Shown one piece after another: positions 9,721-55,995 of a stretch of 64,000 nt of DNA. The notes under the pieces are model-generated. The model searched no databases and had not been told where the DNA came from. It saw only the letters and a list, made by a program, of their open reading frames with translations. The position numbers were made by a program, and so were the translations under genes. Source of the stretch: Candidatus Peregrinibacteria bacterium CG11_big_fil_rev_8_21_14_0_20_49_14 (GTDB taxonomy: Bacteria; Patescibacteriota; Gracilibacteria; Peribacterales; Peribacteraceae); contig PCVP01000026.1 of NCBI GenBank assembly GCA_002787035.1, positions 1-64,000 on the forward strand. The letters are read 5' to 3'. The number at the start of each line of letters is the position of its first letter. Within the stretch, counting starts at the first letter, position 1.

Positions 9721-10578
9721 TTAGACTGTGCGCTGCTTTGGAAATAACGTATCTCGACGCACACAGACCGCAACGAAGAGAATCAATCCGAATGACATAA
9801 TTTGCACCGGCCCGAGAATATCTGCCGGAAGTCCCATGAATCGCAGGCCTTCCCGCAGGAAGATTATGAGAAAAATAGCCAAGGTGACGCCACGCAAACT
9901 CCCGGGACCTCCCGCCACTGCGCACATGACAAAAAAGATCATATGCTGGAAGTTGTAGTCCAACGGACTGAGCAGAAAAATGTACGGCGGAAATAGAATG
10001 GCTGAAATCATGGAACCTGTGCCCGCGAGTAAGAAAGCAATGGTATGGACTTTCTTCCGAGAAATCCCGAGAGATTCTGCATGCCACTCATGTTCCGAAA
10101 GAGCGACAAGATTTCTTCCGAACGAACTGCGTTCCAAACGACGTAAAAAGAAATACCATGCAATGGCACCCAATACCACTACAAGGGCATACCTTTCCAA
10201 GCTGGAGGGCAGAATGCCTCTCGGTATCCGCGGAATACCCAGTGCTCCGCGCGTAACCGACTGCCAGTTTAAAATGATGGACAATACCGCAAGATGCAAC
10301 GCAATGGACATGACACCGAATCCATCCGGCTCCAGGCGAAAAGACAGCTGCGCAAGGAGAAGAGACAACATGGTTGTTGTCAGCAGAGATGCGAGGAGAG
10401 CAAGGAGAAACGGCTGCTGAAACTGCACCACAAGAACCCACAACGTATACACGGCCATGAGACTCTGTGCCTCTTGGCCGAAGTGCAAAATCTTCCCTTT
10501 CCCGAATACGATGTTATACCCCAGAAGCGGAAACAGTGTGAGGCAGGCCATGATGATAATGTGAAGCAGAAAATCCAT
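9721..10578 (-). CDS. livM: branched-chain amino-acid ABC transporter permease (LivM-like)
   Basis: Multi-TM, EWHAESLGISRKKVHTIAFLLAGTGSMISA and AVAGGPGSLRGV permease signatures; next to LivH-like gene. Confidence 0.88.
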   Translation of the reverse strand: MDFLLHIIIMACLTLFPLLGYNIVFGKGKILHFGQEAQSLMAVYTLWVLVVQFQQPFLLALLASLLTTTMLSLLLAQLSFRLEPDGFGVMSIALHLAVLSIILNWQSVTRGALGIPRIPRGILPSSLERYALVVVLGAIAWYFFLRRLERSSFGRNLVALSEHEWHAESLGISRKKVHTIAFLLAGTGSMISAILFPPYIFLLSPLDYNFQHMIFFVMCAVAGGPGSLRGVTLAIFLIIFLREGLRFMGLPADILGPVQIMSFGLILFVAVCVRRDTLFPKQRTV

Positions 10579-10581
10579 ACA

Positions 10582-11460
10582 TTATGCACGACGGGAGGCA
10601 GAGGCAAACATGCCGTTGGGACGGAAAAGGAGAAAAACGATTATGACGAACAGAGCCACCGTTTGTTGGTACCCCGCAGGCACCGTAAACATGCCGAACC
10701 ATTGCACACCTACGACGATTTGCTCGAGGAACGCTATGAGGTACGCACAGAATATCGCTCCCCAAAAGTTTCCTTTTCCTCCCGCAATAATGGCCGCATA
10801 GGCCTTTATGGTAAGTGAGAAAGCCAACGTTGGCGTAAGGCTGGTATCGATACCGATGTATATGCCTCCACAAGCAGCCAGTACTCCGCTGACCACGAAA
10901 ATTATCGTATGCATCATCGGTGCACGAATACCCAAGCTCATAGCAGCGTGATCATTTTGCACGACCGCATGAATTTTGCGACCGAATGCCGTGGAGTGCA
11001 GCACGTATGCAAAGAAGCACAGCAGTAAAAATGTAAGAACAATCATAACAACCTGCACCATGCTTATATACGCGCCCAGTATTTGTACCGTATTTTTAAG
11101 ACCCGGAAGTATGCTGCGTGGCCTCTCCTCAAAGAGGAGAAGGAGCACTCCGTCTAAAATCATACTGAGTGCTATGGTCGTAACCAACGGAAGGAACCTG
11201 TGATGTTTGTAAAACGGTCGTATAAATACTTCGAATACAAACAGAGAAAGCACTCCCCCGAATACGATACCTCCCGCGATACTGAGCGAAAGCGGAAGCC
11301 CAACCGACTGGTGCAACCACCAGGTAACGTATCCGCCGAAAAGAACCATTTGCCCGAGAGCAAGGTTAAACACTCCCAGAACGCCATACACCAAAGCCAG
11401 CCCTCCCGCTATGAGTGCAGCGAGAGAGCCGGCGATGAGTCCGTTCACAAGGAGTTGCAT
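10582..11460 (-). CDS. livH: branched-chain amino-acid ABC transporter permease (LivH-like)
   Basis: GLIAGSLAALIAGGLALVYGVLGVFNLALG; AAIIAGGKGNFWGAIFCAYLIAFLEQI. Confidence 0.93.
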   Translation of the reverse strand: MQLLVNGLIAGSLAALIAGGLALVYGVLGVFNLALGQMVLFGGYVTWWLHQSVGLPLSLSIAGGIVFGGVLSLFVFEVFIRPFYKHHRFLPLVTTIALSMILDGVLLLLFEERPRSILPGLKNTVQILGAYISMVQVVMIVLTFLLLCFFAYVLHSTAFGRKIHAVVQNDHAAMSLGIRAPMMHTIIFVVSGVLAACGGIYIGIDTSLTPTLAFSLTIKAYAAIIAGGKGNFWGAIFCAYLIAFLEQIVVGVQWFGMFTVPAGYQQTVALFVIIVFLLFRPNGMFASASRRA

Positions 11461-44098: not shown

Positions 44099-44173
44099 GG
44101 CCCGTTCGTCTAATGGTTAGGACGCCAGGTTCTCATCCTGGTAACAGGAGTTCGATTCTCCTACGGGCTGCCA
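44099..44173 (+). tRNA. tRNA-Glu (CTC), CCA encoded
   Basis: GGCCCGTTCGTCTAATGGTTAGGACGCCAGGTTCTCATCCTGGTAACAGGAGTTCGATTCTCCTACGGGCTGCCA cloverleaf; anticodon CTC. Confidence 0.96.
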
Positions 44174-45604
44174 ATCACGAAAATCCGGTTGCTGGCGCAG
44201 AACACGCCAGCCTTTTTTGGCTTCGCAGCGCAGCCTTTGCCGTTCTAAAAGAAGGTTCGAGCCGACGCGGAGCAGAAATGCGCGTAGTTCCGGCTTGTCG
44301 TCTTTCGACGCCAACTCTTTGGCTCGTACTGCGTCTTTTATGAGCATCCGGACAGGTTCGAGCCGATCCGTTCCCCCGCTTCGGTACTGCCTGATTTGTT
44401 CCTCGATCCCCGACTTGCGATGCAGCAGGTCGCTCTTCTTTGTGCGGTACTCGTCTGTCGTGAGTTCTCCTGCAAGGCGCAAGTCCAGCAGCGTCTGCAA
44501 TTTTACTTCAACGTTGCTTTTATCGTCCGTCAGCAACTGCGCAGATGCTTGCTTCTCTCGCTTCGTGTCTCTGGCTTCGCCGTCGAGTTTCGCAAGCATT
44601 TTGTTGCCGATGGCATCAGGCAGTGAAAACTGTTCGACGGTTTCTTTCATCTGGCCAAAAAGCGACTCTTCCCGCGCGTATCGTTCGCCGCACGGCCCCT
44701 TTTTCTTTGTGCAGCGGTAGTAGACATGCCCTTTCTGCCTTTCGGCAGTGATCGAGCATCCACAGGAAGCACACTGCATCATGCCAAGAAATGGGTACTC
44801 GTTCTTTCTCTGTCTGTGTTTCTTGCCGCGTTTCACGAACACCCGCTGCACTTCGTCGAACAGTTTTTTGGGAACGATCGGTTCGTGTACACCTTCGTAG
44901 AGTTCGCCCTTGAACAGCATCAGCCCGCAGTAGATGGGACGCTTGAGAAGTTTTTCGACGCCGGAAAGATAAAGCGCGTTGCCGTGGCCGTTCCGCAAGC
45001 CTTCCTCCTCCAACATGTCTCTGATCTGTTTCAGTGTGTACTCGCCCGTCGAGTATGTTTCAAAGGCTTTGCGGATGAGTGGCGCCATCTCTGGGTCGGG
45101 ATCTATGCCTCTGGTCTTGCGGTTGTTGATGTACCCGAGTGGCGCCACGGTCGGCCAGAGTCCGCGACGCAGTTTCTGCCTGTTTCCGCGCTTCACGTTC
45201 TCGCTTAAGTTATCGATGTAGTACTTGCTCTGCCCGAAGGCGATATTGAGCATAAATTTGCCTTGTGGCGTGCTTTCAAACCAGAACGTGGGGAACTTGA
45301 GATCAAGGAGTTTTCCGGTGTCAAGCATGTAGATGATGCGTCCCCCGTCGATGCTGTTCCGGGCGAGCCTGTCTGGATGCCATGACAGTATTCCCTGAGC
45401 TTCACCCTGTTCAATACGGGCAAGCATTTCTGCGAACACGGTTCGGCCGGGTTCTTTGGCGGTTTTGGCTTCCTCGAAGGAAGCCGCGATTTCAAGGCGT
45501 TCTTTTTCGGAATGCTCGGCCAGCTCCGCGAGCTGAGCCTCGATGGAGAGGACTTGTTTGTCCTCCGTCTCCGTGGATTTACGGGCGTAGATGAAGTACT
45601 TCAT
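44117..45604 (-). CDS. large serine recombinase
   Basis: MKYFIYARKSTETEDKQVLSIEAQ, GILSWHPDRLARNSIDGG, Zn ribbon CASCGCSI; C-terminus reads antisense into the tRNA. Confidence 0.95.
   Translation of the reverse strand: MKYFIYARKSTETEDKQVLSIEAQLAELAEHSEKERLEIAASFEEAKTAKEPGRTVFAEMLARIEQGEAQGILSWHPDRLARNSIDGGRIIYMLDTGKLLDLKFPTFWFESTPQGKFMLNIAFGQSKYYIDNLSENVKRGNRQKLRRGLWPTVAPLGYINNRKTRGIDPDPEMAPLIRKAFETYSTGEYTLKQIRDMLEEEGLRNGHGNALYLSGVEKLLKRPIYCGLMLFKGELYEGVHEPIVPKKLFDEVQRVFVKRGKKHRQRKNEYPFLGMMQCASCGCSITAERQKGHVYYRCTKKKGPCGERYAREESLFGQMKETVEQFSLPDAIGNKMLAKLDGEARDTKREKQASAQLLTDDKSNVEVKLQTLLDLRLAGELTTDEYRTKKSDLLHRKSGIEEQIRQYRSGGTDRLEPVRMLIKDAVRAKELASKDDKPELRAFLLRVGSNLLLERQRLRCEAKKGWRVLRQQPDFRDWQPVGESNSCYQDENLAS
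44168..44243 (+). repeat. IR1-L, perfect 76-bp inverted repeat
   Basis: ctgccaatcacgaaaatccgg...cctttgccgt; reverse complement at 45647-45722. Confidence 0.96.
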
Positions 45605-45620
45605 GGGGCGAACGGGGAAG

Positions 45621-45644
45621 GGGGAGAAATTTGCGTTTGGCCAC
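45621..45644 (+). repeat. 24-bp inverted repeat arm, partner 45866-45889
   Basis: ggggagaaatttgcgtttggccac / gtggccaaacgcaaatttctcccc. Confidence 0.92.
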
Positions 45645-45646
45645 TG

Positions 45647-45722
45647 ACGGCAAAGGCTGCGCTGCGAAGCCAAAAAAGGCTGGCGTGTTCTGCGCCAGCA
45701 ACCGGATTTTCGTGATTGGCAG
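45647..45722 (-). repeat. IR1-R, perfect 76-bp inverted repeat
   Basis: Exact reverse complement of 44168-44243. Confidence 0.96.
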
Positions 45723-45727
45723 GGGGG

Positions 45728-45819
45728 GCTGCAAAAAATCCGAACCGATCTGGGCTGCTAGCGGCGCGGCGGCTGCAACAATTCGCGCGCCCAGCCGCCC
45801 GCGCCGCCGCCGTTTTCCG
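45728..45819 (+). repeat. IR2-L, perfect 92-bp GC-rich inverted repeat
   Basis: gctgcaaaaaatccgaaccgatctgggctgctag...ccgttttccg; reverse complement at 50654-50745. Confidence 0.96.
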
Positions 45820-45989
45820 AAAAACCGCCAAAGAACCCGTCCACCGCGTCGGCTCGAACCTTCTTGTGGCCAAACGCAAATTTCTCCCCATCGAATGTAA
45901 TTTGTAAACAGAGGACGTTTCGACTTCTTCCAATAGGGTGGTACCCTGTTGACAGTTTTGAACTACCATCATTCAAATACTATCATTTT

Positions 45990-46226
45990 ATGGAAGAAAA
46001 GAAAACGAAGACCAGTGGCAGGAAGGACGCAATAGGCGTGAAGATACAGGCGTGGAGAAAAAGAAAAGGATTAACGCAAGATGCGCTCGCAAAGAAAGCG
46101 GACATTCCATACACGACACTCGCAAAAATTGAGTCCGGCGTCATAAATAATCCTTCACTGCAAACAATGATGAAGATCGCTGAAGGGTTGGAAGCCTCAT
46201 TAGATGATTTAACCAAAGATCTATGA
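45990..46226 (+). CDS. XRE-family HTH regulator (R-M controller candidate)
   Basis: KIQAWRKRKGLTQDALAKKADIPYTTLAKIESGVINNPSLQTMMKIAEGLEASLDDL; ATGA overlap with next gene. Confidence 0.93.
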   Translation: MEEKKTKTSGRKDAIGVKIQAWRKRKGLTQDALAKKADIPYTTLAKIESGVINNPSLQTMMKIAEGLEASLDDLTKDL

Positions 46227-48100
46227 ACAAGGAACGACAGCAGAGGATATATGAGCTTCTGAAACGCGGTTTGAGACTTGCGGAAGACGGCGATGAGCTT
46301 CCAACGGAGTGGGCGCGTGAACTTTTCCCGCCCGAACGCCGCGAGTACGAGCTTGTTTATAACGGCAAAGAAACCGAGGAGCAGATTCTCGCCGACACAA
46401 TGGCAGTTCCATTTCAGGAAGTCAGCACTTTCGGAAAAAATGGCGTTGATTGGCATAACAAGCTTATCTTTGGCGATAACTTGCAGGCGATGAAAACGCT
46501 TTTGCAAATGAAAACGGACGGGAAATTGGTGAACGCCGACGGTATACCTGGTGTTCGGCTGATTTACATTGATCCGCCATTTGCGACGAAAAAGGAATTT
46601 CGCGGTAGCCAAGACCAAAAAGCCTACCAAGACAAAATCGCTGGAGCGGAATTTTTGGAATTTTTACGCAAACGGCTAGTACTAATGCGCGAGTTACTTG
46701 CGCCGGATGGAAGTATCTATGTTCACTTGGATGAAAAGAAGAGTCACTATGCAAAAACCATTTTAGATGAGATTTTTGGAGAAAATAATTTCCAGCGCGA
46801 GATAATTTGGCGGATCGGCTGGCTTTCGGGATATAAAACAAAAGCGCTAAATTGGATTAGAAATCATGATGTTATCTTCTTCTACACAAAATCTCAAAAT
46901 TTCATTTTTAACAAATCTTACATACCCTACTCCCCCGACTACCGTCGACGAGACGGCTCGGTCCCCGAAGGGAAAGGCTATCCAATCGAGGATACTTGGA
47001 ATTGCTCTGAAATTGATCGGCTAGATTCAATACAAATAATGAGTTTTGCTGGAGAAAAGACAGGATTCCCAACGCAGAAAAATGAAAATTTATTGGAAAG
47101 AATAATTTCTACCTCATCAAATCCGGGCGATATTGTATTGGACGCATTCGCTGGTGGCGGGACAACTGCCGCAGTGGCGGAAAAGTTAGGTCGCCGCTGG
47201 ATTGCGGTTGATGTAAGTAAACTCGCAATTTATACAACGCAAAAGCGGATGCTAACTTTGCGAAAGAATATCAGCAATACCGGCGCACCGCTCACCGCCA
47301 AGCCATTTACGCTCTATAACGCCGGTTTGTACGATTTTGAAAATTTACGAAACCTACCTTGGGAAGATTGGCGATTTTTCGCACTCCGACTTTTTGAATG
47401 CAAAGATGAGGCACATAAAATCCACGGCTTCCAAATGGACGGCAAGCGACAAGGTTCAAGCGTCCATGTTTTTAATCATTTCCAGGAAGGACAGATTAGT
47501 CCGCAAACAATAGCAGACCTACATGCAAGCATTGGAAAAGCTGTCGGAGATCGCTGTTTTATCATTGCTCCGCGCGGCGCATTCCTTTTCCAAGAGGATT
47601 ATATCGAAATGGACGGCGTCCGATATTACGCGCTTCGTATTCCGTATTCTTTCATCAACGAACTGCACCGACGGCAATTTTCCGCGCTCGTACAACCGAA
47701 CGACGAAATGGCTATCAACGAAACCGTTGAGGCGGTAGGTTTTGATTTTGTTCAGCCGCCGGTTGTTGAGCTTGAACTTACTACAAAAGCGCAAGCCGTG
47801 TCTGTTAAAATAAAGAAGTTTGAGAGCAAAGCGCGTCTGCGCGGAGAGGACAAAATCAGCAAACACGACGCACTCTCAATGGTGATGGTAGATTACGATT
47901 ATAATGGGAAAGTGTTTGATTTGGATACAGCGTTTTATGCGAGCGCGATAAAAGATAACAAGTGGAAAATTGAGCTACCGACCAAGGAGATTAAGGGCAT
48001 TGTCATGCTCGTATTTTTGGACATTTACGGCAACGAAGCGCGTATTGCGATAGATAAAGCGAAACTCATTAACAAAGGCCGCCGATTAACCAAAAAATGA
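46223..48100 (+). CDS. Type III restriction-modification DNA methyltransferase (Mod)
   Basis: IYIDPPFATKKEF, LMRELLAPDGSIYVHLDEKKSHYAKTILDEIFG, DAFAGGGTTAAVAEKLGRRWIAVD (motif IV before motif I). Confidence 0.92.
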   Translation: MNKERQQRIYELLKRGLRLAEDGDELPTEWARELFPPERREYELVYNGKETEEQILADTMAVPFQEVSTFGKNGVDWHNKLIFGDNLQAMKTLLQMKTDGKLVNADGIPGVRLIYIDPPFATKKEFRGSQDQKAYQDKIAGAEFLEFLRKRLVLMRELLAPDGSIYVHLDEKKSHYAKTILDEIFGENNFQREIIWRIGWLSGYKTKALNWIRNHDVIFFYTKSQNFIFNKSYIPYSPDYRRRDGSVPEGKGYPIEDTWNCSEIDRLDSIQIMSFAGEKTGFPTQKNENLLERIISTSSNPGDIVLDAFAGGGTTAAVAEKLGRRWIAVDVSKLAIYTTQKRMLTLRKNISNTGAPLTAKPFTLYNAGLYDFENLRNLPWEDWRFFALRLFECKDEAHKIHGFQMDGKRQGSSVHVFNHFQEGQISPQTIADLHASIGKAVGDRCFIIAPRGAFLFQEDYIEMDGVRYYALRIPYSFINELHRRQFSALVQPNDEMAINETVEAVGFDFVQPPVVELELTTKAQAVSVKIKKFESKARLRGEDKISKHDALSMVMVDYDYNGKVFDLDTAFYASAIKDNKWKIELPTKEIKGIVMLVFLDIYGNEARIAIDKAKLINKGRRLTKK

Positions 48101-50616
48101 TTATGCCGCGACGCAATCAAAACAGCGGACGTTTCCACAATACAGATCTCGTGCTCGAGATCAGCTCGTCTGTTAATCGAAAAAAATGGGATGAGAATAG
48201 ATACGAAGCATTTATTGATGAACTTTGTGGGGTCAGAGAGTACCAGAAAGACGCGATATTTTGCGCGCTTCGGTACTTGCTCGGTGGTGAGTATCGCAAC
48301 TTACGAGACTTGGCCAAGAAAAATTTTGAGCAGAACGAAGTTTTGCGTGATAAGTACGGTACACAGGGCAATTTTGAACGACATTTACAATTACCGGACC
48401 AACTTGCCGCCTCACTAGACTTGGCAACTGGCACGGGCAAAAGCTATGTGATGTATGGCATTGCGGCGATCATGCTTGCTGAGGGCACGGTTGATAGAGT
48501 TTTGGTGTTGTGTCCGTCCACGACGATTGAAACAGAATTATTGGAAAAATTTGAGCTATTGGCTGGAAACGCCGATTTGCGTGATCTTTTGCCAGCAAAT
48601 GCGGTAGTGAATGCTCCGCGTGTGATAAATGCCAGTGAGAGCATTGTGTCCGGCAGTATTTGTATAGAGAACTATCACGCAATCCTCGCCCATGTGCACT
48701 CGTCAATTCGCGATAGTCTGCAAGGTAAGGGGGAACGCACGCTTATTTTGAATGATGAGGCACACCATGTCACAAACGAGGTGGCGAGTAAGGCGAAGCG
48801 CTGGAAGGAATTTTTAACCGATCCGAGTTTCGTATTCCGCTATGTCATCGGCGTTTCTGGCACTTGCTATCTTGGCAATGAGTATTTTTCCGATGTGATT
48901 TATCGCTATTCGTTGCGGCAAGCAATGGAAGAAAAGTTTGTGAAGAAAGTGCAGTATGTCGCCGAAATGCCGCGGACGAGACAACCGGAAGAAGAAAAGT
49001 GGCAATTAGTAATGAATCGCCATGAAGAGCTCCAGCGCAAGTTGAAATCGCATAAATTACGTCCGCTGACCATTGTCATCACGAAAGACATTCGTGGTTG
49101 TAAGGATGTAGCCGAGAAATTCAAAGCATTTTTGCAAGAACAAACTGGCAAAAGCCGAGAGCAAATCGACGAGCAGGTGCTTGTCATTCATAGCGACGCG
49201 CCGGATTTGCCGCGTCTTGCAGGTGTAAACAACGCAACGAGCAAAGTTGAATGGATTTTATCGGTTTCCATGTTGAACGAGGGTTGGGATGTGAAGCGCG
49301 TTTTTCAGATCGTTCCACACGAAAAAAGGGCATTTGACAGCAAGCTGCTCATCGCCCAAGTGCTCGGGCGCGGCCTGCGAGTGCCGGACGGCTGGAAAGG
49401 TCCACAACCGGAGGTTACGATTTTCAATCATGACCGATGGGCGGATGACATTAGGCATCTAGTTAATGAAGTTTTGGAATTTGAGAAACGCATACCGACC
49501 TTTCCGGTTACCTCGTCTGAATATAATTTTGAACTTCTGAACATTGAATATGATCCGAAACCGCGTACAGAAACTTATAAAATGGAAGAGCCATACCAGC
49601 TTTTAAAAAAGGGATATGTTGATTTGTCCACGGAATTGCCGCAAGAAGAAATGACGGTTGAATTTGAGGAAGCTGATACCGGTGTGCGGACCCAGTGGAA
49701 AACGAAAATAAGGCACAAAACTTATACGCCACATGAAGTTGCCGAAGTTATGTTTCAGCGATTTGAGGATTTGCCGGAAGACGAAGATCGCAAATTTTAT
49801 ATAAAACAGTTGCCCCTTGATAAGCTGGAAGAAATTGTCAAAAGGTCTTTGATAGAAACGGGGAATAAGGTCATTACTGAGAGTATGCGTCAGAAGTTTT
49901 TGCAGTCACTTGGAACCCTCCAAAGGAAAGAGGCGCAAGTCGTTCGCTACGATTTTGAGCCGACAAACTACTATCCAATATCAACGGTCGAGCGACCACA
50001 AGAGAGCGCGAGCGCATCTGATTTGAAGAACGGCAAAACGTTTTTTTACACGAGTAAGACGAAGGAAAATATGCCGGATGAGTATAAGGACTTTTATGAA
50101 GAAGCTATTGCGGAAGGAAGCGGCTTTAAATGTGTGCAAGTTGCCAATAATTACGACTTCAGGTCGCCGCTTAATGCCGTAGTTGCAGATCACGACAATG
50201 AGCGAAGATTCGTTAAGGAGTTAATGAAAGCCGAAAATGCGGAGCATATTGCCGCATGGATAAAGTCAACGCCAATGAGTTTTTACGAAATTGATTATTT
50301 CTGGAAGAAAGGCGAACACCCAAAGCGCGGAAAATTCAGCCCCGACTTTTTCATAAAAACCGATGGCTTAATTTTGGTCGTAGAGATTAAAGACGACGAT
50401 GAGATTGGCGATCCGTTAGTAGAGAACAAAAAGAAAAATGAATACGCGCTCGCTCATTTTGGGCGGATCAATGCTTATTTGCGAAAGAATAAAAAACAAC
50501 AAACTTATAAATTCAATTTTCTCACCCCGTCTGACTTTAATGGCTATTTTCAAAGCATTAGAGAAGGGGGCATTGCGGATTTCACATCAGAATTGGATGT
50601 TGAATTGAAAAAGTGA
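48097..50616 (+). CDS. Type III restriction enzyme (Res), DEAD-like helicase-nuclease
   Basis: DLATGTGKSYVMYG, LNDEAHH, AQVLGRGLRVPDGW, C-terminal PDFFIKTDGLILVVEIKDDDE. Confidence 0.92.
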   Translation: MIMPRRNQNSGRFHNTDLVLEISSSVNRKKWDENRYEAFIDELCGVREYQKDAIFCALRYLLGGEYRNLRDLAKKNFEQNEVLRDKYGTQGNFERHLQLPDQLAASLDLATGTGKSYVMYGIAAIMLAEGTVDRVLVLCPSTTIETELLEKFELLAGNADLRDLLPANAVVNAPRVINASESIVSGSICIENYHAILAHVHSSIRDSLQGKGERTLILNDEAHHVTNEVASKAKRWKEFLTDPSFVFRYVIGVSGTCYLGNEYFSDVIYRYSLRQAMEEKFVKKVQYVAEMPRTRQPEEEKWQLVMNRHEELQRKLKSHKLRPLTIVITKDIRGCKDVAEKFKAFLQEQTGKSREQIDEQVLVIHSDAPDLPRLAGVNNATSKVEWILSVSMLNEGWDVKRVFQIVPHEKRAFDSKLLIAQVLGRGLRVPDGWKGPQPEVTIFNHDRWADDIRHLVNEVLEFEKRIPTFPVTSSEYNFELLNIEYDPKPRTETYKMEEPYQLLKKGYVDLSTELPQEEMTVEFEEADTGVRTQWKTKIRHKTYTPHEVAEVMFQRFEDLPEDEDRKFYIKQLPLDKLEEIVKRSLIETGNKVITESMRQKFLQSLGTLQRKEAQVVRYDFEPTNYYPISTVERPQESASASDLKNGKTFFYTSKTKENMPDEYKDFYEEAIAEGSGFKCVQVANNYDFRSPLNAVVADHDNERRFVKELMKAENAEHIAAWIKSTPMSFYEIDYFWKKGEHPKRGKFSPDFFIKTDGLILVVEIKDDDEIGDPLVENKKKNEYALAHFGRINAYLRKNKKQQTYKFNFLTPSDFNGYFQSIREGGIADFTSELDVELKK

Positions 50617-50653
50617 AATGTACGAACCCGAAAAAGAACGCCTTGAAATCGCC

Positions 50654-50745
50654 CGGAAAACGGCGGCGGCGCGGGCGGCTGGGCGCGCGAATTGTTGCAG
50701 CCGCCGCGCCGCTAGCAGCCCAGATCGGTTCGGATTTTTTGCAGC
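50654..50745 (-). repeat. IR2-R, perfect 92-bp GC-rich inverted repeat
   Basis: Exact reverse complement of 45728-45819. Confidence 0.96.
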
Positions 50746-50828
50746 ACCCCCTGCCATCACTGGCTATGGTTTATAGACCCGCTTGCCTCAGCCAAAAAGT
50801 CAGAGTTCGAGGGGGTGGTTTTTTGGTT

Positions 50829-54621: not shown

Positions 54622-55995
54622 TCACTCCTTGGCCTCTTTCGCGAGCGTGATCTTCCCATCCTCCAGCGTGATCTTGTTCCGGAGGCAGTTGAGCAGCTCC
54701 CGCTTCTCCTCGATCTTCCCATTCTGCAGGAGGTACTTGGCGTACGCCCGAATCTCCACCCTTGGCATCTTCGCGCTCGCACTCTGGCCCAAGACTCCCG
54801 TTGTGAATTTCTCGTATCGAGACACCTCCTCCTGCAGCTTCTTCTTCATGCCGATCTTGTCGAGATCAATTGTGTCGATGATGGTAAGGAGACTCTCCAG
54901 CAGTTCATCCTCGCGGATCGACGGCTGCTTGCAGTCATGGTTTTTGGCATGGCAGCAGCGGTAGTACACGTACTTCCTGATACTCCCGTCCTTCATCCTC
55001 TTATGTTTCTCCTCAGCAGTGATACCTGAGCCGCAGTTCCCACAGAGCATCATCTTCGTGAAGGCGAATTCCTTGCTGCCCCATTGTTTCTTCGGGGCCA
55101 TGTCGAGTACCTTTCCGGCCTCCTCGAACAGGCGCTGGCTCACGAGCGGCTCATACGTCCCTTGATACCAGTTGCCGCTCCCGACCGGATACTCAAACTT
55201 CCCCGTGTAGAAGGGATTCCGGAGCATCCGATAGATCATGCTGAGCGTGATGGTTCTGCCCAGTTTCGTGGTAAACCCGACCTCCTGCATCCACCGATGG
55301 AGTTGTCGCCCCGACGCATGCTGATAGGCCACCTTCTCGAAAGCCTGCCGCACGAACGGTCCCCGGATCGGGTCCGGGATGACTCTGTTTTTCTTGTCCT
55401 CCGGTCGCTTCTCGAGTGCGTACCCAAGCGCTGGGATACAGGGGCGGTGACCCATCTCCGCTCTCGTTTTCATGCCACGCTTCGTATTGATCCCTCGGTT
55501 GTCGTTTTCCAGCTTCGCTTGCGAGCAGAGAATCATCAGCAGAAATTTCTCATTCGGATTGTTGGTGAATCCCTGCCCATGCGTTCGGATTTCAATGAGA
55601 TGCCCCTGATCCATGAGGTCGACGACTGTTCCGAGATCGCCCGCGTTCCTACTAAGTCGGTCCGCAGCCCATGTCAGGATGCCGTTAAACATGCCTGCAC
55701 GAACATCGGTCAGCAGTTGCTTGAAGACAGGCCGCGCTCCTGATGCTTTGGCGGAGTGACTCTCTCGGCGCACTTCTGCGATCTCGAGTCCCTCCCTCTT
55801 GGCGAGTTCTAACATCGCTTTAATTTGCGAATCGATGCTGAGCGCCTGCCGTTCGTCGTCCTCACTCGATTTTCTCGCGTAGAGGCAATACCGCATCGCT
55901 CCGGTGGAGGCGAGCGACGGGGTAAGATCGAGATGGGTCAGTTCTGGTATTGGTGTTTTTGGAGCCTTGGTTCGGCTCAGGGTGGCGGTTGCCAT
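54622..55995 (-). CDS. large serine recombinase (second)
   Basis: MRYCLYARKSSEDDERQALSIDSQ, GILTWAADRLSRNAGDLG, Zn ribbon CGNCGSGI...CCHAKNHDC. Confidence 0.95.
   Translation of the reverse strand: MATATLSRTKAPKTPIPELTHLDLTPSLASTGAMRYCLYARKSSEDDERQALSIDSQIKAMLELAKREGLEIAEVRRESHSAKASGARPVFKQLLTDVRAGMFNGILTWAADRLSRNAGDLGTVVDLMDQGHLIEIRTHGQGFTNNPNEKFLLMILCSQAKLENDNRGINTKRGMKTRAEMGHRPCIPALGYALEKRPEDKKNRVIPDPIRGPFVRQAFEKVAYQHASGRQLHRWMQEVGFTTKLGRTITLSMIYRMLRNPFYTGKFEYPVGSGNWYQGTYEPLVSQRLFEEAGKVLDMAPKKQWGSKEFAFTKMMLCGNCGSGITAEEKHKRMKDGSIRKYVYYRCCHAKNHDCKQPSIREDELLESLLTIIDTIDLDKIGMKKKLQEEVSRYEKFTTGVLGQSASAKMPRVEIRAYAKYLLQNGKIEEKRELLNCLRNKITLEDGKITLAKEAKE

Follow-up and report, generated by a model that had tools for sequence, protein, structure and literature searches.

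The 64,000-nucleotide stretch of DNA that was analyzed (hereafter the window) contains a 6.6-kb element, located at about positions 44174 to 50756, that is inserted in the 3′ end of a tRNA-Glu(CTC) gene (44099–44173, plus strand). The last six bases of this tRNA, CTGCCA (44168–44173), constitute the left core of the element, and the same hexamer at 50751–50756 (plus strand) constitutes the right core, where the element ends. In a relative (G004:C88) the site is empty, wherein tRNA-Glu is continuous with sequence matching the right flank of the window. This empty site confirms the insertion and, together with the core at both ends, establishes the bounds given above. Thus, with the tRNA left intact, the locus exhibits the features of a tRNA-integrated genomic island.

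At the left end of the element is the D arm (44168–44243), which by direct reading of the sequence combines an att half-site, the region encoding the integrase C terminus, and a hairpin with a T-run. This stem-loop and the six T nucleotides that follow it (44180–44225) point away from tRNA-Glu and may double as its terminator. The integrase gene (44117–45604, minus strand) specifies 495 amino acids as integrated, the last 16 of which derive from the antisense strand of the tRNA. The preliminary description of this locus had recognized a serine recombinase flanked by inverted arms. The Resolvase (PF00239), Recombinase (PF07508), and zinc ribbon (PF13408) domains all score above the Pfam cut-off and classify the protein as a large serine integrase, and profile searches match it to the A118 integrase structures 4kis and 6dnw. 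Integrases of the A118/TP901-1 type likewise contain these three domains, with a long coiled coil. Unlike them, the present element places attP within the integrase reading frame, targets a tRNA, and carries an inverted second attP and self-copies upstream of the gene.

The plus strand encodes an HTH_3 regulator (45990–46226; an open reading frame with a profile match), a type III-like DNA methyltransferase (mod, 46223–48100), and a type III restriction subunit (res, 48097–50616). This type III restriction-modification operon is the cargo of the element. The right end is formed by the P arm (50654–50750, plus strand), which in the circular form would supply the tail GVLQKIRTDLGC. Cargo in relatives (L044, L063, L057, L125, L126, and L040) often consists of restriction-modification or other defence genes, including type II, type IIG, and type I restriction enzymes, a Ppl-like gene, and a match to an RT-protease defence model. 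In L040, positions 10231–10586 hold the truncated end of an integrase, after which come core, P, and E′; this is what is left of a second, tandem element in the same tRNA-Glu. The window itself also has a second, distant serine recombinase (54838–55896, minus strand; 36% identical to the first) about 4 kb past the right end of the element.

An inverted attP copy and short self-copies accompany the integrase gene

A perfect 76-bp inverted repeat had been reported at this locus, with a left arm that opens on the final six bases of tRNA-Glu and encodes the integrase C terminus, and a right arm just upstream of the start codon. Each of these points is borne out. Positions 44168–44243 and 45647–45722 are exact reverse complements at 76 of 76 nucleotides, a match that is impossible by chance, and the right arm is situated 43 bp 5′ of the ATG at 45604. 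The earlier observation was incomplete, as the identity of the arm as an attP copy, the right end of the element, and the short self-copies were not seen there.

On the minus strand, the left end of the element reads D-core and the right end reads core-P, and the junction of a circular form gives D-core-P. Positions 45728–45819 are the exact 92-bp reverse complement of 50654–50745 at the far end of the element. Indeed, the entire segment 45647–45819 is an inverted D-core-P copy, comprising D plus core (45647–45722, plus strand) and the P arm (45723–45819, plus strand), apart from a single changed nucleotide beside the core (GGGGGG versus GGGGTG). The element thus carries its attP a second time, in reverse, in the interval that separates the start of the integrase gene from the cargo.

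A scan of the whole window for exact matches also revealed four shorter inverted pairs that tie 45821–45889 and 50628–50652 to the integrase gene. The first of these regions contains pieces C, B, and A, which present integrase-sense sequence on the plus strand. Piece C (45448–45466, minus strand; nucleotides 138–156 of the gene) is copied at 45821–45839, piece B (44249–44270, minus strand; nucleotides 1334–1355), which occupies the same position in relatives, is copied at 45844–45865, and piece A (45621–45644, minus strand), which lies 5′ of the integrase start at −40 to −17, is copied at 45866–45889. Piece E (45486–45510, minus strand; nucleotides 94–118) has its copy at the right end (50628–50652, plus strand). 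We considered whether piece A might be a promoter element in common with the cargo, and rejected this on finding that cargo genes run towards A in L046 and L047.

Between pieces E and C, at nucleotides 119–137 of the gene (45467–45485, minus strand), is a conserved hairpin, GGCTTCCTTCGAGGAAGCC, with compensatory changes. That its pairing is kept through changes on both sides suggests that some single-strand structure may matter. A coding hairpin with a perfect stem of 12–13 bp is also present between two self-copied pieces near nucleotides 1302–1331 of the integrase genes of L020, L118, L122, and L133. Folding of whole integrase genes relative to synonymous shuffles gave z values of −0.7 to −3.5, versus +0.5 to −1.7 for host and cargo genes. 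This excess is only modest, and we rejected the idea of special folding across the whole gene.

Integration replaces the integrase C terminus

As integrated, the integrases of this family end in antisense-tRNA peptides such as PVGESNSCYQDENLAS and RRGRDSNPR.... Reading from D through the core into the stored P copy yields, in most elements, a short conserved end (...KIRTDF, ...KIRTDL, or ...KIRTFFQENPDADF). In the window, this inverted P arm encodes GGLQKIRTDLGC in frame after D. The same peptide had been predicted in the preliminary description as an alternative tail, and it corresponds to the conserved native C terminus of the family.

The native-tail motif, ...W....KIRTD(L/F), is conserved in the reading frame in approximately 45 elements. 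Mean entropies at codon positions 1, 2, and 3 of the motif are 0.70, 0.33, and 0.98, respectively (45 elements). The fact that the third position is the most variable suggests selection at the protein level, although part of this periodicity could stem from the constraint that integrase binding places on the P arm. In L079 the native tail is contiguous and uninterrupted, and an AlphaFold model of the L079 integrase depicts residues 478–491 as helical with a pLDDT of about 71–85.

As judged from these sequences, attP is located within the 3′ portion of the integrase reading frame, and the circular form would encode an integrase ending in a conserved P-arm helix. Because attP lies within the coding sequence and is split at the core, integration replaces the end of the protein with an antisense-tRNA peptide. 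Among the sampled integrases, which come from many little-known bacteria, insertion into the chromosome removes the natural end of the protein, and the spare copy retains it. In mycobacteriophage BPs, attP is located inside a coding gene and integration changes the C terminus of the protein (PMC4557955). The elements described here share this arrangement, with attP inside an open reading frame whose C terminus is altered by integration. The BPs switch acts on a repressor gene and involves a degradation tag, whereas here the integrase itself is affected and its lost end is kept in an inverted copy.

The layout is conserved among divergent relatives

A genome-wide scan recovered 543 relatives, of which 80 were retrieved, from Patescibacteria, Elusimicrobia, and other bins. 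Arms of the window type are present in at least 36 elements, wherein the pieces occupy fixed gene positions (A at −40 to −17, E at 93–119, C at 137–156, and B at about 1334–1361) and the sequence is specific to each element. The layout is repeated, with their own sequences, at a second integrase of this genome (C33, in tRNA-Ser; 57% identity) and among relatives that are 50–61% identical: a D copy of about 78 bp, a P copy, A, C, and B upstream of the gene, and E at the far end beside P. A second subtype has D copies of 100–150 bp and nested 12–19-nt pieces near the start codon, and a third has pieces at 584–614. The layout is absent from the distant serine recombinases found in the same kinds of tRNA (L052–L054).

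In the region upstream of the integrase, an exact inverted 14-mer match to the element's own gene is present at 57 of 94 loci, versus 67 of 739 cross pairs with the genes of other members; in direct orientation, such a match occurs at a single locus of the 94. At the other 37 loci, no exact 14-mer arm occurs within the interval tested, which may reflect decay, tolerated mismatches, cut contigs, or arms located elsewhere. Most intact elements, as read from their sequences, carry a complete inverted attP just upstream of the integrase together with short exact promoter-proximal, N-terminal, and C-terminal self-copies. Our literature searches found no prior description of this architecture.

Orientation of the integrase unit

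The integrase reads into the tRNA at 75 loci, which is 75 of the 76 with an adjacent tRNA called by ARAGORN. Three more loci have the same orientation as judged by a tRNA/tmRNA T-loop motif, giving 75–78 of 79 tRNA-marked loci; the survey also included 11 loci without a recognized target and eight that are cut short. This near uniformity implies that integration seldom if ever takes place at the inverted attP.

A search among relatives for the opposite orientation, as had been proposed, yielded one case, L079 (2753–4228 plus flanks). By sequence reading, tRNA-Trp lies upstream of this integrase, to which the P-arm tail is attached; core, P, C, B, and A follow it, with an HTH-like gene beyond them. 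L079 most likely represents the inverted state. Its two D arms have diverged, and its att copies differ in the core (GTGCCA, that of tRNA-Trp, and CCGCCA), which hints at two target specificities held by one element. A second candidate, L111, was rejected on recognition that it is a tandem of two elements. Inversion thereby appears to occur on an evolutionary time scale rather than to be the usual state.

Discussion

The sequence shows that the window contains a tRNA-targeting element with attP in its integrase frame and an inverted attP copy upstream. We consider it fairly probable that this copy is a stored attP and tail kept by DNA-level copying, and that the change of tail is self-limiting. 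In the excised circle, the integrase would have the conserved P-arm helix as its end. The integrated gene is split at the core and takes its tail from antisense-tRNA sequence. The inverted attP would serve as a stored intact site plus tail, presumably kept in register with the live attP by copying at the DNA level, perhaps through template switching or through fold-back pairing in a single-stranded stage. It may occasionally recombine with the live site, thereby flipping the integrase unit, and the change of tail probably renders the integrase self-limiting after insertion. Weighing against the copying step, homologous gene conversion works poorly on pieces as short as 15–28 bp. Homogenization of inverted repeats by template switching, which keeps their arms identical, has been described (PMC8604942, PMC7202029). 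Its action would be putative over the present distances, with arms separated by as much as 1.6 kb and located at fixed gene positions in many species.

The preliminary description had instead proposed a possible self-inverting cassette. In the strong form of this idea, the arms would recombine regularly, turning the integrase unit around and switching both its tail and its promoter context. As in Hin- or Mpi-like cassettes, inverted recombination sites (the attL half and the inverted attP copy) do flank the segment; the perfect arms hold a full att site, inversion would restore the native tail, and the flipped L079 has the P-arm tail, with C, B, and A as direct copies downstream. The swappable tail is upheld by the conservation of the native end. 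Inversion as the normal mode is not, given that one relative is inverted versus 75–78 in the common orientation, and that the divergence of the L079 D arms shows its flip not to have arisen by recent exchange between identical arms. Moreover, unless a directionality factor is present, serine integrases are described as not normally recombining att sites in other pairings (PMC3783163). We therefore regard regular inversion as quite unlikely. The tail swap itself is well supported, with integration and excision at attP, rather than inversion, as its main source.

Alternatively, the inverted copies might fold back on a single strand, rendering attP double stranded and forming perfect junctions from the short arms, in a stage such as natural transformation. 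Phage CTXphi carries two attP copies, inverted, on one element, and uses the tyrosine recombinases XerC/XerD at closely spaced sites. The present elements likewise have two inverted attP copies, whereas their recombinase is of the serine family and 1.4 kb, including the integrase gene, separates the sites. The single-stranded CTXphi genome integrates via its folded double inverted attP (PMC3089051). Such folding is consistent with pieces that abut at the junctions, with hairpins there that carry compensatory changes, and with the fully nested pieces of the second subtype. Mismatches between arms (G·T 11, A·C 18, and transversion 13 for the window type; 7, 13, and 16 for the second subtype) have no G-U bias, which points to the DNA rather than the RNA level. 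We nevertheless judge this alternative unlikely, as serine recombinases make double-strand breaks, the single-stranded stage is putative, the direct arms of L079 permit no pairing, and the general excess of local folding is modest. A broader formulation, that widespread elements hold a gapped, inverted, continually refreshed self-copy that folds one strand at perfect multi-way junctions and works in integration, as a folded single-stranded attP or in DNA-templated self-repair of integrase and attP, is tentative and rather doubtful. Very unlikely is a leader RNA, antisense to the integrase message, that silences it. The pieces do show complementarity within the integrase-sense strand, and in the second subtype they extend as far as the start codon, but G-U enrichment is lacking in either orientation, the only Rfam match is the tRNA, and cargo genes in some elements (L046) end against piece A′, leaving no obvious promoter. 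Finally, this is a draft metagenome assembly and exact inverted repeats are a known type of chimera, such that the right arm had been flagged as a possible artefact. This is rejected on the comparative data and retains a negligible probability: each element copies its own integrase at fixed positions, across dozens of independent assemblies from Patescibacteria, Elusimicrobia, and others the design recurs at the same gene coordinates while the sequence differs, and it is found in long contigs and in a record titled complete genome (AP024682.1).

These integrative elements form a large family in phyla that have hardly been studied; they carry defence genes, and integration itself rewrites their integrase. 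A naturally occurring C-terminal helix may switch the activity of these serine integrases. A spare attP in reverse and exact self-copies, both kept at fixed positions over such great divergence, demand a mechanism, whether DNA copying or a single-stranded stage, that is not described in the literature we found.

Portions of the integrase gene are also present on two viral contigs, with 355–392 bp identical to the window's integrase (L137, 1–411; L138, 1–355). One viral contig opens with piece B, then A, then the start of the integrase, an arrangement resembling a crossover within the 24-bp piece A, although its place at a contig end invites caution. Both L137 and L138 include a GroEL-like gene and the 5′ part of the integrase at 100% identity, ending at nucleotide 351. 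In L137, as judged by reading translations, this stretch adjoins a DNA methylase gene and a putative restriction gene.
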